Source of the DNA: Candidatus Rokuibacteriota bacterium
Lineage (GTDB): Bacteria; Methylomirabilota; Methylomirabilia; Rokubacteriales; CSP1-6
Direction of reading: 5' to 3'
DNA length: 50,355 bases
Assembly: GCA_003221515.1 (NCBI GenBank)
Contig: QHSI01000113.1
Span: 9,027-59,381 of the forward strand
The translations under genes and the position numbers were made by a program. Positions 33,449 through 40,286 of this stretch are shown here, one piece after another (position 1 is the first letter of the stretch; every line of letters starts with the position of its first letter). The notes below the pieces were generated by a model, which worked only from the letters and a program-made list of their open reading frames with translations, searched no databases and had not been told where the DNA came from.

Positions 33449-35089
33449 GTGACGGATCCAGTGACGGTGTCCGTGCTCACGCATCGCCTGGAAGCGATCG
33501 TCCAGGAGATGGGCGAGGCCATGCTGCGCACGGCGTACTCGCAGATCCTCAACTCGAGCCGCGACTTCTCCACCGCGCTCTGCGACGCCCAGGCGCGGCT
33601 GATCGCGCAGGCCGAGCACGTGCCGATCCACGTGGGCGCGATTCCGTGGGCGGTCGAATCCGTGCGCGACGCCTTCAAGGACCGCATCAAGCCGGGCGAC
33701 GTGTACCTGTTAAACGATCCCTACCACGGCAACAACCACCTGCCGGACCTGACCGCGTTCGTGCCGGTGTTCGTGGGGGGCGAGGTCGCCTTCTGGTCCG
33801 TCAACCGCGCGCACCAGAGCGACATCGGCGGCTCGACCCACGGCGCCTACAACCCGGGCGCGACGGAGATCTGGCAGGAAGGGCTGCGGATCACGCCGCT
33901 CAAGCTGTACGACGCGGGCGAGCTGCGCGACGACGTGCTGCGCATGATCACGACCAACGTGCGTCACCCCCACGACTTCATGGGTGACCTGCGCGCGATG
34001 ATCGGCTCGGCGCGTATCGGCGAGCGGCGGCTGCTCGCCCTGATCGAGGACTACGGCGCCGCGACGGTCGTGGCGGCGGTGGACGAGATCCTCGACGGCG
34101 CCGAGCGCCAGGCGCGGGCGTGCGTCACCGGCTGGCGCGACGGCGTCTACCGCGGCGAGTCGGTGCTGGACGACGACGGCCACGGCTTCACTGACATCTG
34201 GATCCGCGCCACCGTGACCAAGAAGGGCGGCGCGCTCACGATCGACCTGAGCGACTGCCATCCGCAGGTGCACGGCTTCGTCAACTCGTCGTTCCCGAAC
34301 ACGATGTCGGCGGTGCACATGGCGTTCGCGTATCTCATCGACCCGCGCACGCCGAAGAACTCGGGGACGTTCCGGCCCGTGCGGGTGATCGCCAAGCAGG
34401 GGACGATCGTGTGGCCCTATCCGCCCGCGCCGGTGACGCTCGCCACCAACCACTGCGCCCAGGAGATCGCCGAGGCGATCATCAAGGCGCTGGCGCCCGC
34501 GTGCCCCGATCGCGCGATCGCGGGCTGGGGGCGACGGTTCCGCGTCGCCATCAAGGGCACGAACCCCCGGACGGGCAAGCCGTTCATCTGGCACCTGTTC
34601 CACGCGCGGCCCGGCGGCGGTGCGACCGCCGCGGGCGACGGCTGGGAGACGGCCGGCGAAGGCCAGGCCGCCGGCGGGATCAAGTTTGGCAGCGTCGAGG
34701 TGGCGGAGGCGCGGTTCCCGCTGACGTTCGAGCATCACGAGTTCCGCGCCGACTCGGCCGGAGACGGGATGCATCGCGGGGGCGTCGGGGCGGAGCTACG
34801 ACTGCGCGTCGACGTCGAGGAGCCGGCCGTCGCGAACACCGCCGGTGACGGCGTGCGCCACGCTCCGTACGGCCTCCTCGGCGGCCGGGACGGCCGTCCC
34901 CACCGCTACCGCCTCCGCTCGCGCGGCCGGCCGGACCGCGTCCTGAAGACCAAAGAGGTCGGGATCCAGGTGCGTCCGGGCGACGTGTTCCTGGTCGAGT
35001 CGTCCGGTGGCGGCGGCTACGGCTCGCCGGCGAAGCGATCGCGCGCCGCGCGCGCGCTCGACCGCGACGGCGGCTTCGTGCGCCGCTAA
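33449..35089 (+). CDS. hyuB: Hydantoinase B/oxoprolinase family protein
   Basis: 546 residues, the usual length of HyuB. Landmarks are AMLRTAYSQILNSSRDFSTA, IHVGAIPWAVE, GDVYLLNDPYHGNNHLPDLT, AHQSDIGGSTHGAYNP and the glycine-rich C-terminus ESSGGGGYGSP. With HyuA it forms an ATP-dependent amidohydrolase or carboxylase acting on hydantoins, 5-oxoproline or ketones such as acetone. The GTG start follows GGGGGC. Its HyuA partner lies 3.1 kb downstream rather than adjacent. Confidence 0.92.
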   Translation: MTDPVTVSVLTHRLEAIVQEMGEAMLRTAYSQILNSSRDFSTALCDAQARLIAQAEHVPIHVGAIPWAVESVRDAFKDRIKPGDVYLLNDPYHGNNHLPDLTAFVPVFVGGEVAFWSVNRAHQSDIGGSTHGAYNPGATEIWQEGLRITPLKLYDAGELRDDVLRMITTNVRHPHDFMGDLRAMIGSARIGERRLLALIEDYGAATVVAAVDEILDGAERQARACVTGWRDGVYRGESVLDDDGHGFTDIWIRATVTKKGGALTIDLSDCHPQVHGFVNSSFPNTMSAVHMAFAYLIDPRTPKNSGTFRPVRVIAKQGTIVWPYPPAPVTLATNHCAQEIAEAIIKALAPACPDRAIAGWGRRFRVAIKGTNPRTGKPFIWHLFHARPGGGATAAGDGWETAGEGQAAGGIKFGSVEVAEARFPLTFEHHEFRADSAGDGMHRGGVGAELRLRVDVEEPAVANTAGDGVRHAPYGLLGGRDGRPHRYRLRSRGRPDRVLKTKEVGIQVRPGDVFLVESSGGGGYGSPAKRSRAARALDRDGGFVRR

Positions 35090-35289
35090 CTCGCGTTGCT
35101 CACCTGATCATCGCCGCGGTCTCCGACGACCCGACGGCCGAGGCCGATCAGCGCCAGCCCCAGCGTGACGCGCCACGGCCGGCGTGGCGGACGCAGCGAC
35201 CGGAGCCACACCTCGCGCGCCACCCTCGCGCGTGCGTCGGCGAGCCGCTCTCGAGCCAGCCACTCGACCGAGTAGACGTTCAGGTCCAT
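35086..35289 (-). CDS. Small hypothetical protein
   Basis: 67 residues: an N-terminal MDLNVYSVEWLARERLADA helix, a basic stretch RSLRPPRRPWR and one short hydrophobic segment (VTLGLALIGLG). It overlaps the end of the preceding minus-strand gene by 10 nt and the HyuB stop by 3 nt. I do not recognise a family; overlap with a like-strand partner supports it being real. Confidence 0.5.
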   Translation of the reverse strand: MDLNVYSVEWLARERLADARARVAREVWLRSLRPPRRPWRVTLGLALIGLGRRVVGDRGDDQVSNAS

Positions 35290-35681
35290 GACACCGACTC
35301 CCCTCCGGCTGCACCCGCCGCGACCGCGGCGCGCTCACGCTGCGGCGCGAATTTCTCGCGCGGGCTCAGCACGATCTCGAAGCGCCCCGGTCGCGTTCCC
35401 TCGTGGGCGTCGAAAACGCCGCGGGCCGCGCGAACCACTTGCGTCACCGTGTCGGCGTTGTCGAGCTCGAGGGGGATGAAGACCTGCCACCGCCCATCCA
35501 GTCGGTGACGCACCACGGGCGAGACGACCGCGCCCAGCGCGGCGTGGATCGCGTCGGTGACCTCGATCTGGCGCGCGATCGTCGCCTCCGCACGGCGCTG
35601 GAATCGACCCGAGAACAGAAGCAGCGCCACCACGAACGCGGGCGGTAGGAACACGAGCAATCCGATGAACACTGTCAGCAT
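35280..35681 (-). CDS. Membrane-anchored hypothetical protein
   Basis: 133 residues: one N-terminal TM helix (LTVFIGLLVFLPPAFVVALL), then a soluble alpha/beta domain containing RWQVFIPLELDNADTVTQVV and a Ser/Ala-rich tail. No family recognised. The start is ATG 35681. It is followed in the same direction by the 67-residue frame, so the two form a small operon. Confidence 0.6.
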   Translation of the reverse strand: MLTVFIGLLVFLPPAFVVALLLFSGRFQRRAEATIARQIEVTDAIHAALGAVVSPVVRHRLDGRWQVFIPLELDNADTVTQVVRAARGVFDAHEGTRPGRFEIVLSPREKFAPQRERAAVAAGAAGGESVSWT

Positions 35682-35753: not shown

Positions 35754-35805
35754 GTCGCTCTCTGTGACACCGCGGAGCGGTCGACGTGAAACGCGCGAGG
35801 CGGGG

Positions 35806-36771
35806 CTACGCCGAGAGCGGGTGCAGATCCGGGCGGCAGGCGGTGCAGGGCGCCAGGCCGGCCGACTCGGCGCGCTCGCGCGAGGCGAACAGCGTGAGGT
35901 CGGCGAGCGTGCGCGAGGGGAGCCCGCCGCACGTGGGCAGGCAGTACTCGACCTCGTTGCGGTCGCGCACGTACATGGTGTCGCGCGCCACGCGCGGATC
36001 GCGGTGCGCGCTGAGCGTGGGCACGCCTTCCAGGCCCAGGAGCCGCGTCTTGAGCGAGAGCTTGTCGCCCGCGTAGCCGGTCAGCAAGCCGGAGCTCCCG
36101 ATGATGCGGTGGCAGGGCACGACGATCGGCAGCGGATTCCAGCGGAGCGCCTGCGCGACGGCGCGCACCGCCGAGCGGTTGCCGACGTCAGTGGCGATGC
36201 CCGCGTACGAGGCGACCGCGCCGTAGGGGATCGCCACCGTCGCCTTCATCACCGCGCGCTGGAAGTCGCTGCGGGCCAGCCGGAGGTCGAGCGGCCACTC
36301 GAGCCGCGTGCGCTTGCCCTGCAGGTACTCGAGCAGCTCGCGGTAGAGCGCCTCGACCTCGAGACCGTCTTCCTGCGCCTCGACGCCCGCCACCTGCGCG
36401 AGCCGTGAGAACTTGAAGCCGGTGCGCTCGCCCAGGTACTCCACCAGCGACACGCCGTGCTCCGAGCGCGCGATGAGGATGTTGCCGAGCGGCGAGGGGA
36501 ACACGCGGTACATCATCAGCCGCGATCTCAGGTCCGCCAGCCGCGACTCGAGCCGCTCGCGAGCGCGGACGGCGCCCTCCATCGCCGGCTCGCGCCGGAG
36601 CACGCCCACGACGCCGTCGATCTCGCGGTAGCGCTGGAAGTCCCCGCGGCAGGCGGCGCAGAACCCAATGTGGTCCTCGACCCGCCCGCGGACCACCGGC
36701 TCAGCGTCCCCCGTCGCCGTGGCGATCAGGTCGGCTTCGATCTCGCGGCAGGACTGCGGCTTGTGCTTCAT
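35806..36771 (-). CDS. Anti-sigma zinc finger / O6-alkylguanine-DNA methyltransferase / Ada-type Cys4 fusion
   Basis: 321 residues in three parts. Residues 1-50 are a zinc anti-sigma domain with the exact C8-x25-H34-x3-C38-x2-C41 pattern. Residues about 88-250 are an Ogt/MGMT methyltransferase with PYGAVASYAGIA, acceptor C220 in IVVPCHRIIG, and GLLTGYAGDKLSLKTRLL. Residues about 265-315 match the N-terminal zinc domain of Ada: C277-x3-C281 and C309-x2-C312, the same spacing as Ada Cys38/42/69/72, but at the other end of the protein. The first cysteine of that set is the methylphosphotriester acceptor in Ada. ATG 36771 overlaps the ECF sigma gene stop (ATGA). Inference: it holds the sigma factor until DNA methyl groups are transferred to it, then releases it. 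Confidence 0.93.
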   Translation of the reverse strand: MKHKPQSCREIEADLIATATGDAEPVVRGRVEDHIGFCAACRGDFQRYREIDGVVGVLRREPAMEGAVRARERLESRLADLRSRLMMYRVFPSPLGNILIARSEHGVSLVEYLGERTGFKFSRLAQVAGVEAQEDGLEVEALYRELLEYLQGKRTRLEWPLDLRLARSDFQRAVMKATVAIPYGAVASYAGIATDVGNRSAVRAVAQALRWNPLPIVVPCHRIIGSSGLLTGYAGDKLSLKTRLLGLEGVPTLSAHRDPRVARDTMYVRDRNEVEYCLPTCGGLPSRTLADLTLFASRERAESAGLAPCTACRPDLHPLSA

Positions 36772-37310
36772 CGTGATGGCTCCATGTGCGCAAATTCGTG
36801 CCCGTCGAGACTCCGCCGGATCTTACGGAGCGCCTGAAAGACATGGGCGCGCGCGCTCTCCGCCGAGCAGTCGAGGCTTTGCCCGATCGTTTCGTAGTCG
36901 AGGTCGTGCATCTTTCGGAGGGTGAACGCCGCCCGCTGCTTCAGCGGCAGCCCCCGGATCGTGGTCTCGAGCAGCGTCCGGGCTTCGCCGAACAGCGCCA
37001 CGCTCTCCGGCCCCTCGAGGTCGGTCTCGCGCTGTTCCACCGCGGCCGAAGCGTACGCGAGGCGGCGGCGCTTCTCGCCGCGGAAGTGGTTCCGACTCAG
37101 GTTCGTCGCGATCGCGAAGAGCCAGGCCCGGACGTTGGCCTCCGGAGTCAAGGTGCGGTAGGCGCGATACGCGCGCAGAAACGTCTCCTGGGAGAGATCC
37201 TCGGCCTCGCTCGTACGCGACGTGACGCGCCGCAGATATCGGAAGATCTCCGCGTGATGCGCGGCCACGATGGTCTCGAACGGCTGTGCGCCCATCATTG
37301 GTGAGAACAC
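36768..37310 (-). CDS. ECF-family RNA polymerase sigma factor
   Basis: 180 residues: region 2 (IFRYLRRVTSRTSEAEDLSQ, with the -10 recognition helix after it) and region 4 (GLPLKQRAAFTLRKMHDLDY, ETIGQSLDCSAESARAHVFQA). There is no extra domain. The likely start is GTG 37310, though ATG 37298 or 37295 is possible; none has a clear ribosome binding site. It is translationally coupled to the anti-sigma/methyltransferase fusion, so that protein is its cognate regulator. Target promoters are unknown but would be expected to include DNA-repair genes. Confidence 0.93.
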   Translation of the reverse strand: MFSPMMGAQPFETIVAAHHAEIFRYLRRVTSRTSEAEDLSQETFLRAYRAYRTLTPEANVRAWLFAIATNLSRNHFRGEKRRRLAYASAAVEQRETDLEGPESVALFGEARTLLETTIRGLPLKQRAAFTLRKMHDLDYETIGQSLDCSAESARAHVFQALRKIRRSLDGHEFAHMEPSR

Positions 37311-37429
37311 CGCACCGGCTCGGATGTGAAACGGCCCGCGGGCTCACCACATGATAAGGTATCTTGCTTCGACGACATCGCCGCCCGGCTCGCGCGCGGC
37401 GAGCAGCCCTAGCGGATCGCGGAGGCGCG

Positions 37430-37516: not shown

Positions 37517-37560
37517 CAGTCGCGCCTCGGCCGGCGGGTCCCCCCGCGACGGCCGGTGGC
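37517..37560. repeat. Dispersed hairpin repeat, copy C
   Basis: It shares CGCGCCTCGGCCGG and CCCCGCGACG with copies A and B; its own stem is GCGGG with CCCGC around a TCC loop. It is shorter and more diverged on the right. It lies between the oxidoreductase stump and the PPOX-family gene. Confidence 0.55.
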
Positions 37561-37609
37561 GCGGACCACGGACGCAATAGCGAGATTGCGCGGCGTCCAG
37601 GAGGATCCA

Positions 37610-38233
37610 ATGTTCAAGCGCGTGGTGACGTCGGAGAGCGAGCTGCGGCAGCTCATGGGCACGCCGAGCGAGCGGGCGGTGAAGAAAGAAAGCGCGAACG
37701 TCGACGAGCACGGCCGCGACTTCATCGCGCGCTCGCCGTTTCTGTTGCTGGCGACGTCGAGCGCCTCCGGCCGCTGCGACGTCTCGCCCAAGGGCGACGC
37801 GCCCGGCTTCGTCCGCGTGCTCGACGAGCACCACCTCGCGATTCCCGACCGGATCGGCAACAAGCGGCTCGACGGCATGCGCAATATCCTCGAGAACCCG
37901 CACGTCGGGTTGATCTTCCTGATCCCCGGGCGCGAGGAGACGCTGCGCGTGAACGGACGCGCGTGGATCGTCCGCGACGAGGCGCTGCTGACGACGCTGT
38001 CGGCCCAGGGCAAGCTGCCCCAGCTCGCGATCGGCGTCGAGATCGAGGAGTGCTTCTTCCACTGTCCCAAGGCCTTCCGGCGCTCCAAGCTGTGGGAGCC
38101 GGCGAGCTGGCCCGATCGCGACGCGCTGCCGACGATGGCGTGCGTGCTGTACGAGAAGCTCCAGCCGGCGGGCAAGACCCTCGAGGAGTACTTGCGCGAG
38201 AGCGAGGAAGGGCTCCAGAGGACGCTCTATTGA
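37610..38233 (+). CDS. Pyridoxamine 5'-phosphate oxidase-like FMN-binding protein (MSMEG_1061-like)
   Basis: 207 residues of the split-barrel flavin-binding fold. Landmarks are ARSPFLLLATSSASGRCDVS, PKGDAPGFV, IPDRIGNKRLDGMRNILENP and GLIFLIPGREETLRVNGRA. These are hallmarks of the MSMEG_1061-type FMN-dependent PPOX family, which binds FMN or F420 and reduces small molecules. AGGAGGATCCA precedes ATG 37610. The hyuA GTG follows 7 nt after its stop, so it is cotranscribed with hyuA. Confidence 0.88.
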   Translation: MFKRVVTSESELRQLMGTPSERAVKKESANVDEHGRDFIARSPFLLLATSSASGRCDVSPKGDAPGFVRVLDEHHLAIPDRIGNKRLDGMRNILENPHVGLIFLIPGREETLRVNGRAWIVRDEALLTTLSAQGKLPQLAIGVEIEECFFHCPKAFRRSKLWEPASWPDRDALPTMACVLYEKLQPAGKTLEEYLRESEEGLQRTLY

Positions 38234-38240
38234 TGGCGCG

Positions 38241-40286
38241 GTGAGCCGCCGCTACCGCATCGGGATCGACGTCGGCGGCACCTTCACCGACCTCGTCGCC
38301 GCCGACGAGCGCGGCACGGTCACGATCGCCAAATCTGCTTCGACTCCGGCCGATCCCTCCGACGGCCTCGTCGACGGGCTCGGGCTGCTCGCGGTCGAGC
38401 TCGGCACGGACCTGCGCGGGCTCCTCGCGCAGACCGATTCGATCGTGCACGGCACGACCGTCGCGACCAACGCGCTGCTCGAGCGCAAGGGCGCACGCGT
38501 CGGGCTCCTGACCACCGAGGGACACCGCGACGTCATCGAGATGCGCGAGGGCCTGAAGGACGATCGCTACAACCTCCGCATGGCGCCGCCCGTGCCGCTC
38601 GTGCCGCGCGCGCGCCGCCTGGGCGTGCGCGAGCGCATGCGCTTCGACGGCACCGTGGCCACGCCGCTGGGCGCCCGGTCGCTCGAGACGGCAATCACCG
38701 CGCTCGAGAAGGCGCGCGTCGAGGCGGTCGCGGTCTGCTATCTCCACTCGTACCGGAATCCCCGGCACGAGTCGCTGACGGGCCGCGCCCTCGCCCGGCG
38801 CCTGCCCGGCGCGTACGTGTCGCTCTCGTCCGAGGTCTTGCCGCAGATCAAGGAATACGAGCGGGTCTGGACGACCGTGGTGAACGCGTACGTGGGCCCG
38901 GGGCTGTCGCGCTATCTCGCGAGCCTGGCGGCGCGCCTGAAGGGCCACGGCTATCGCGGCGACGTGCTGATCATGCAGTCGCACGGCGGCGTGGCGCTCG
39001 TGCGCGAAGCCGCGCGGCTCGCCGCCGGCGCGGTGCTGTCGGGGCCGGCCGGCGGCGTCGCCGCCGGACGCTACAGCGCACGCCTCCTGGGCGAGGGCGA
39101 CCTGATCACGTTCGACATGGGCGGGACCTCGACGGACATCGCCCTCCTGCGCTCGGGCGAGCCCCAGCTCACCAGCGAGAAGACCGTCGGAGTGGCGAAG
39201 GTCGCGCTTCCGGCGATCGACATCCACACGCTCGGCGCCGGCGGCGGCTCGGTCGCGTCGGTGGACGCGGGTGGAATTCTCCACGTCGGGCCCGAGAGCG
39301 CCGGGGCCGAGCCGGGGCCGGCGTGCTACGGCAAGGGCGGCACGCGCGCGACCGTGACGGACGCCAATCTGGTGCTGGGGTTCCTGGATCCCGGGAATTT
39401 CCTGGGCGGGCGCATCGCGCTCGACGCCGCGGCGGCGCGCGCGGCCGTCGACGCGGTCGCCGCCCGGCTGGGCACGACGCCGCTGCGCGCGGCCGAGGGC
39501 ATCTCGAAGGTGGTCAACACCAACATGGCCGAGGGGATCAAGATCGTCTCGGTCCGCCGCGGCGTGGACCCGCGCCGGTTCGCGCTGGTGGCCTTCGGCG
39601 GGGCGGCCGGGCTCCACATCACCGAGGTCGCGCGCCTCCTCGAAATCCAGCGTGTGATCGTGCCCTCCGCCGCCGCGGTGCTGTCGGCGTGGGGCATGCT
39701 GGCGACCGATCTGCGCTACGAGATGGTGCGCTCGCACGTCAGCGAGGTCGGGCGCATGACCGCCGCGGGGCTGCGCAAGCTCTTCGCGTGGCTCGAGCGA
39801 GAGGGCCGCAAGCGCCTCGCGCGCTTCGCGGGAGACGTCACCGTGCGCCGCGCGCTCGACATGCGCTACGGCGAGCAGATCTTCGAGATCTCGGTGGACC
39901 TCGACGGCGTGGATCCGGCGGCGGCGGACCTTTTGGATCAGGCCGCCGCGCGCTTCCACCGTCGTCACGAGGAGCTCTACGCGTACAGCGCGCCGGGCCA
40001 GGAGGTCGTCATCGTCAACGCGCGCGTCGCGGTCATCGGCGCGCTGCCGGTGTTGCCGGCCGGCGCCGGGACGGTCGAACGGCGCGCCGCCGCGCCGCCC
40101 GCGCGCCGGCGCGTCTGGCTGGGCGACTGGGTCGAGGTCCCGGTGCGCCGGCTGGACGGGCTCGTCGCGGGGCTCGAGGCCAAGGGGCCGGCCATCTTCG
40201 AGTCGGCGACCACGACCGTGCTCGTCCGCGAAGGCGAGCGGGTCACCGTCACGCCCCACGGCTGGCTCGACATCCGGCTCGGCTGA
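38241..40286 (+). CDS. hyuA: Hydantoinase/oxoprolinase N-terminal family, subunit A
   Basis: 681 residues, typical HyuA. The N-terminal ATPase of the actin/ASKHA fold has IGIDVGGTFTDLVA and HGTTVATNALLE, then QSHGGVALVREAA, LSGPAGGVAAG, TFDMGGTSTDIAL and LGAGGGSVASVD. The C-terminal part contains FGGAAGLHITEVA and ARFHRRHEELYAY. It supplies ATP-dependent activation for a HyuB partner; the only HyuB here is at 33449-35089, separated by four unrelated genes. The GTG start is 7 nt after the PPOX gene. The MFS gene follows by 4 nt, so uptake may be coupled to hydrolysis. Confidence 0.93.
   Translation: MSRRYRIGIDVGGTFTDLVAADERGTVTIAKSASTPADPSDGLVDGLGLLAVELGTDLRGLLAQTDSIVHGTTVATNALLERKGARVGLLTTEGHRDVIEMREGLKDDRYNLRMAPPVPLVPRARRLGVRERMRFDGTVATPLGARSLETAITALEKARVEAVAVCYLHSYRNPRHESLTGRALARRLPGAYVSLSSEVLPQIKEYERVWTTVVNAYVGPGLSRYLASLAARLKGHGYRGDVLIMQSHGGVALVREAARLAAGAVLSGPAGGVAAGRYSARLLGEGDLITFDMGGTSTDIALLRSGEPQLTSEKTVGVAKVALPAIDIHTLGAGGGSVASVDAGGILHVGPESAGAEPGPACYGKGGTRATVTDANLVLGFLDPGNFLGGRIALDAAAARAAVDAVAARLGTTPLRAAEGISKVVNTNMAEGIKIVSVRRGVDPRRFALVAFGGAAGLHITEVARLLEIQRVIVPSAAAVLSAWGMLATDLRYEMVRSHVSEVGRMTAAGLRKLFAWLEREGRKRLARFAGDVTVRRALDMRYGEQIFEISVDLDGVDPAAADLLDQAAARFHRRHEELYAYSAPGQEVVIVNARVAVIGALPVLPAGAGTVERRAAAPPARRRVWLGDWVEVPVRRLDGLVAGLEAKGPAIFESATTTVLVREGERVTVTPHGWLDIRLG

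Follow-up and report, generated by a model that had tools for sequence, protein, structure and literature searches.

The locus lies on the minus strand of the window, by which we mean the whole 50,355-nucleotide stretch of DNA that was analysed, from a soil-dwelling member of the Rokubacteria. It comprises an ECF sigma factor gene, a gene encoding a three-domain fusion protein, two promoter sites and a predicted target gene:

36768..37310, minus strand: ECF sigma factor gene, 180 aa as listed (Pfam; upstream neighbour in 47/47 loci)
35806..36771, minus strand: anti-sigma/Ogt/Ada fusion gene, 321 aa (Pfam; 44 non-redundant homologues aligned)
36520..36771, minus strand: class-I zinc anti-sigma domain, residues 1-84, C8-x25-H34-x3-C38-x2-C41 (zf-HC2 in homologues; AlphaFold2; Foldseek)
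36022..36519, minus strand: O6-alkylguanine-DNA alkyltransferase domain, residues 85-250, acceptor C220 in PCHR at 36114-36112 (Pfam 3e-27; Foldseek; conservation)
35827..36006, minus strand: Ada-type Cys4 domain, residues 256-315, C277-x3-C281...C309-x2-C312, C277 at 35943-35941 (Pfam 8e-6; phmmer)
37305..37331, minus strand: predicted autoregulatory promoter of ECF type, TTTCAC-N13-CGGTGTTC (spacing identical in 51/51 loci)
35765..35791, minus strand: second predicted site, TTTCAC-N13-CGGTGTCA, in the gap that separates the fusion gene from its downstream neighbour (one mismatch; 10 relatives have an equivalent site before a gene of the same family)
35280..35681, minus strand: predicted target, a protein of 133 aa whose single hydrophobic segment is N-terminal; no Pfam match

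The stop codon of the ECF gene and the start codon of the fusion gene share the sequence ATGA, giving a 4-nt overlap. The initial annotation had described an ECF gene overlapping in this way a gene for a zinc anti-sigma, an Ogt/MGMT and an Ada Cys4 domain in that order. Both open reading frames are present there on the minus strand, the domain order agrees with conservation and with the predicted fold, and the motif positions (C8-x25-H-x3-C-x2-C, C220, C277/C281 and C309/C312) are correct. The ECF protein matches Sigma70_r2 (4e-17) and r4_2 (3e-11) in Pfam, and its content of sigma regions 2 and 4 only, together with an autoregulated promoter of fixed spacing, is that of an ECF sigma factor. 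ATG 37298 or 37295 is a more probable translation start than GTG 37310, since the latter sits within the promoter -10 element. The system is flanked on the opposite strand by hydantoinase B-like (33449-35089, plus strand) and A-like (38241-40286, plus strand) genes, and a pyridoxamine-oxidase-like gene is found at 37556-38233 on the plus strand, all named by eye from the sequence.

Pfam places Methyltransf_1N (6e-7), the MGMT DNA-binding domain (DNA_binding_1, 3e-27) and Ada_Zn_binding (8e-6) in that order along the fusion protein. The N-terminal domain of the window protein alone matches zf-HC2 weakly (E 0.03-0.08, below the cut-off), and 21/21 homologous N-termini match the same family, the best at 9.7e-8. 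The AlphaFold2 model of the whole fusion, built with 29 homologues, has a mean pLDDT of 88.5, with a value of 90 for the anti-sigma domain, which is predicted to form helices at residues 6-19, 25-37, 39-60 and 64-84, the last of these passing directly, with no linker, to the strand that opens the alkyltransferase (residue 85). A class-I anti-sigma domain is defined by three helices that contact sigma region 4, a fourth helix for sigma region 2 and an Hx3Cx2C signature across helices 2 and 3 (PMC7406223). Residues 1-84 show this arrangement in the model, with H34 in helix 2 and C38 and C41 at helix 3, matching the signature described there. When the isolated domain was compared with 350,542 PDB chains using Foldseek, ranks 1-17 were all anti-sigma entries (RsiW, MucA, RslA, DdvA, and ChrR), with E-values of 0.46-3.7, the weakness of the single values being expected because the query consists of 84 helical residues. 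The alkyltransferase domain has the Ogt fold and the PCHR acceptor cysteine of the Ogt/MGMT family (Pfam, Foldseek and conservation), with Foldseek values for the fusion model of 2e-12 against Mycobacterium tuberculosis Ogt and 6e-12 against the C-domain of Escherichia coli Ada. The C-terminal domain aligns with E. coli N-Ada over all four cysteines (phmmer, E 0.007) and carries the C-x3-C...C-x2-C pattern with its first cysteine, C277, at the acceptor position occupied by Cys38 of E. coli Ada. No AraC-type helix-turn-helix was detected in the fusion protein by Pfam, and the E. coli-type Ada regulator architecture of N-terminal Cys4, AraC helix-turn-helix and C-terminal Ogt is absent, the order being reversed.

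Full or nearly full fusions were found in 47/95 genomes of the phylum (E ≤ 1e-33), G052 and G094 holding only contig-end fragments; the named records among fusion-bearing genomes are Candidatus Rokubacteria. Outside the phylum, no window-type fusion was detected at the same threshold in a 388-genome sample. Residues C8, H34, C38, C41, C220, H221, C277, C281, C309, and C312 are invariant in 44/44 non-redundant homologues, which share 54-89% identity with the window protein. The possibility raised earlier, that homologues might never neighbour an ECF gene, was not borne out, as the ECF gene lies directly upstream of the fusion in all 47 loci with enough DNA (three further fusion genes at contig ends stand outside this count), and in 44 of these 47 the two genes overlap by 4 nt. 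The fusion is thus encoded beside an apparently cognate ECF gene, as is typical of class-I anti-sigma domains. Residue conservation and ECF pairing rule out a chance open reading frame or a misread motif, and the presence of the fusion in 47 of the 95 genomes rules out the oddity of a lone lineage. Type-1 (window-type) fusions were also seen in two genomes of another family (G006 and G007, family f5), which have 7-10% contamination and may owe these genes to contaminating contigs.

The promoter and its regulon are new here and were absent from the initial annotation. The consensus 5' of the ECF gene is TTTCAC-N13-CGGTGTCT, and the N13 spacing is exact in 51/51 loci holding TTTCAC upstream of ECF, a set that includes duplicates. 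The exact sequence was matched 67 times in the 95 genomes, compared with 2 matches for the reversed control. Autoregulatory sites make up 25 of the 67, and 38 of the other 42 precede five recurrent families: DUF2652 (19 sites), a ~130-aa protein with one hydrophobic segment (10), DinB/DUF1706-type proteins (5), another ECF (2), and Usp (2). The DUF2652 protein is the commonest target (L118, L120, L123, L124 and others), and in the source genome a DUF2652 gene (L140, G000:C53) is likewise preceded by an exact site. Genes of the ~130-aa family lie directly 3' of the fusion gene in the examples checked. A one-mismatch site at G000:C71 is inside an apparent membrane-transporter gene and was taken as chance. 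Another, about 280-300 nt upstream of the AlkB-like Oxygenase-NA gene, is found only in the three closest relatives and is absent before other stand-alone copies, so type-1 control of this oxygenase was set aside as a weak lead.

The source genome carries a second ECF and Ogt-Ada pair, type 2 (G000:C50, L002; 831-1289 and 1294-2001, plus strand), in which no zinc anti-sigma domain was recognisable. Both alkyltransferases of this genome that retain an acceptor cysteine are therefore ECF-paired; its third MGMT match resembles an ATL protein in that PCHR is replaced by PWHR. A remnant or frame-shifted AdaA-like gene, with an Ada Cys4 end followed by an AraC-type helix-turn-helix, is also present (L067, G000:C130). 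Type 2 occurs in about 49 genomes of the phylum, usually with a short helical stub as its N-terminus, although family f7 retains the ZAS motif, and its promoter, TTCCACCC-N16-CGTATA, gave 22 exact matches and 0 for the control. In eight genomes (L203-L205 and L207-L211) Oxygenase-NA (PF09859), for which the Pfam description gives damaged DNA as the substrate, directly follows the type-2 genes in an operon; before stand-alone oxygenases the type-2 promoter was not found, except for one exact site ~250 nt upstream of one G050 copy. Three Ogt-Ada proteins of family f10 (L109, L110, and L117) had no ECF neighbour detected in the flanking DNA examined.

Pairs of overlapping or abutting ECF and Ogt-Ada genes also exist beyond the phylum, in Actinomycetota (Nonomuraea, Rubrobacter and two Streptomyces plasmids) and in 12 genomes belonging to a single genus of another phylum, where one pair is split by a contig end. 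On the Streptomyces plasmids (L243 and L244) the ECF and Ogt-Ada genes are followed by a separate methyltransferase gene beside metF, with metH too in one, and the annotation of the Ogt-Ada gene names nothing beyond an Ada metal-binding protein. A recognisable anti-sigma domain is lacking in most of the partners from type 2 and from Actinomycetota. The full Hx3Cx2C is present in L276 and L280 of the other-phylum genus and in the related L282 of another genus; in many ECF-paired Ogt-Ada proteins (type 2 and the G205 phylum) the zinc ligands are eroded, while PCHR and the Ada cysteines are kept. A tree of the alkyltransferase domain, thinly sampled, does not place the ECF-paired types 1, 2 and actinobacterial in one clade apart from uncoupled Ogt. 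A single origin for all the pairs is not supported by this tree, whose topology appears consistent with repeated coupling or with losses.

Sequence supports the domains, the invariance of the catalytic residues, the pairing with an ECF gene, and the promoter with its regulon; sigma binding, repair activity, an alkylation trigger and the direction of the response are inferred. It is likely that the pair constitutes an alkylation-responsive ECF sigma/anti-sigma switch in which the fusion is both inhibitor and alkyltransferase. With healthy DNA the fusion protein would hold the sigma factor at two places, sigma region 4 being bound by the zinc bundle of three helices and sigma region 2 by helix 64-84. 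Repair would proceed by irreversible transfer to C220 from O6-alkylguanine and to C277 from methylphosphotriester, and alkylation of one or both cysteines would deform the fusion, destabilise it or mark it for degradation, the deformation or the degradation of spent protein releasing the sigma factor. We propose that such a change could free sigma because the putative sigma-2-binding helix joins the first alkyltransferase strand without a linker. By analogy with the methylation switches at Cys38 of E. coli Ada and Cys267 of Cada2 (PMC10957082), and with alkylated OGTs, which are destabilised and then degraded (PMC5751216), release of sigma by methyl transfer is plausible. Free sigma would transcribe its own operon from TTTCAC-N13-CGGTGTCT, refilling the spent repair protein, as well as the genes for the one-helix membrane protein, the DUF2652 protein and, in some lineages, DinB/DUF1706-type proteins. 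Several findings count against an alkylation switch: other than the fusion, the type-1 regulon contains few genes of classical alkylation repair; most type-2 and actinobacterial partners have no anti-sigma domain that can be recognised; the zinc-ligand spacing equals that of RsrA; and the individual Pfam and Foldseek scores for the window anti-sigma domain are weak.

The Cx25Hx3Cx2C spacing is that of the redox sensor RsrA, and the zinc site could for this reason be the real sensor, its thiolates being oxidised or directly alkylated to release sigma, with Ogt and Ada as induced cargo. We judge such a redox or thiol-electrophile sensor unlikely. All four zinc ligands are invariant, some of the target genes encode DinB-superfamily/DUF1706 proteins that match mycothiol-type domains, and soluble zinc class-I anti-sigma domains are often redox-linked (PMC7406223); however, zinc may have a structural role only, RsiW being an example (PMC7406223), and the loss of zinc ligands from many type-2 and G205-phylum partners that keep PCHR and the Ada cysteines suggests that the common element of ECF and Ogt-Ada systems is the alkyltransferase, which argues for this domain as the sensor. 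The alkylation switch in turn overlaps strongly with homeostatic titration, from which it differs only in the manner of sigma release. Here sigma and fusion, translated together, would keep the repair pool constant, sigma being freed in proportion to spent and degraded alkyltransferase with no signal-specific allosteric switch. Suicide chemistry and the degradation of OGT after alkylation in other organisms (PMC5751216) would fit titration, as would the overlapping genes and autoregulation, but titration alone explains neither the retained second acceptor in the Ada Cys4 domain nor the targets outside the operon, and we consider it quite improbable as the full account. For the co-regulator reading, in which the fusion, once alkylated, would remain bound and work together with sigma at promoters instead of inhibiting it, there is the ability of the E. 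coli Ada Cys4 domain to bind DNA. Despite the precedent of methylated Ada and Cada2, which activate transcription (PMC10957082), this reading is very unlikely given the anti-sigma fold of the N-terminus and the lack of an AraC-type helix-turn-helix.

E. coli Ada and the fusion both combine an Ogt-type alkyltransferase (PCHR) with an Ada Cys4 domain, and both are presumably autoregulated and damage-inducible. In the fusion, however, the Cys4 domain is C-terminal, and an anti-sigma domain and ECF partner take the place of the AraC helix-turn-helix. With RsrA, ChrR, RsiW, and RslA the fusion shares an N-terminal four-helix class-I domain, the Hx3Cx2C motif and a gene beside that of an ECF factor; none of these class-I zinc anti-sigma factors is known to use a DNA-repair enzyme for sensing. 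Cada2, the Caulobacter adaptive-response regulator, likewise has an alkyltransferase domain in which methylation of the PCHR cysteine is the activating switch (PMC10957082), but it is a DNA-binding activator with neither Cys4 domain nor sigma partner. The closest match in the literature is a remark in a review that ECF122 neighbours 6-O-methylguanine DNA methyltransferases, has no cognate anti-sigma factor and is uncharacterised in mechanism (PMC8999054). The window pair resembles ECF122 in the conserved methyltransferase gene next to the ECF gene and, in a comparison by description only, differs in that the methyltransferase itself bears the anti-sigma domain (PMC8999054). No description of an Ogt/Ada alkyltransferase as an anti-sigma factor was found in the open full-text literature, the main ECF classification lying outside this search. 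The earlier statement that no described system has this layout was nearly right, and is qualified by the methyltransferase neighbours of ECF122 (PMC8999054) and by the occurrence of the Ogt-then-Ada order elsewhere.

The chances seem to us evenly balanced that these pairs represent a third way in which bacteria wire their adaptive response to alkylation, one in which the suicide repair enzyme is itself the anti-sigma factor and its consumption by damage releases an ECF sigma factor in stoichiometric amounts. Such a wiring may have evolved repeatedly (two separate families of Rokubacteria, and a further one each in Actinomycetota and another phylum) and would explain ECF122-like control. The defined promoter allows a simple reporter test in a laboratory host. 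If true, this arrangement would join Ada-type methyl-cysteine switching with sigma/anti-sigma control, two textbook systems not connected until now, and would provide a concrete, testable mechanism for ECF122 and its relatives, which are listed in the literature without known regulation. It predicts a damage sensor that would count its own spent molecules.
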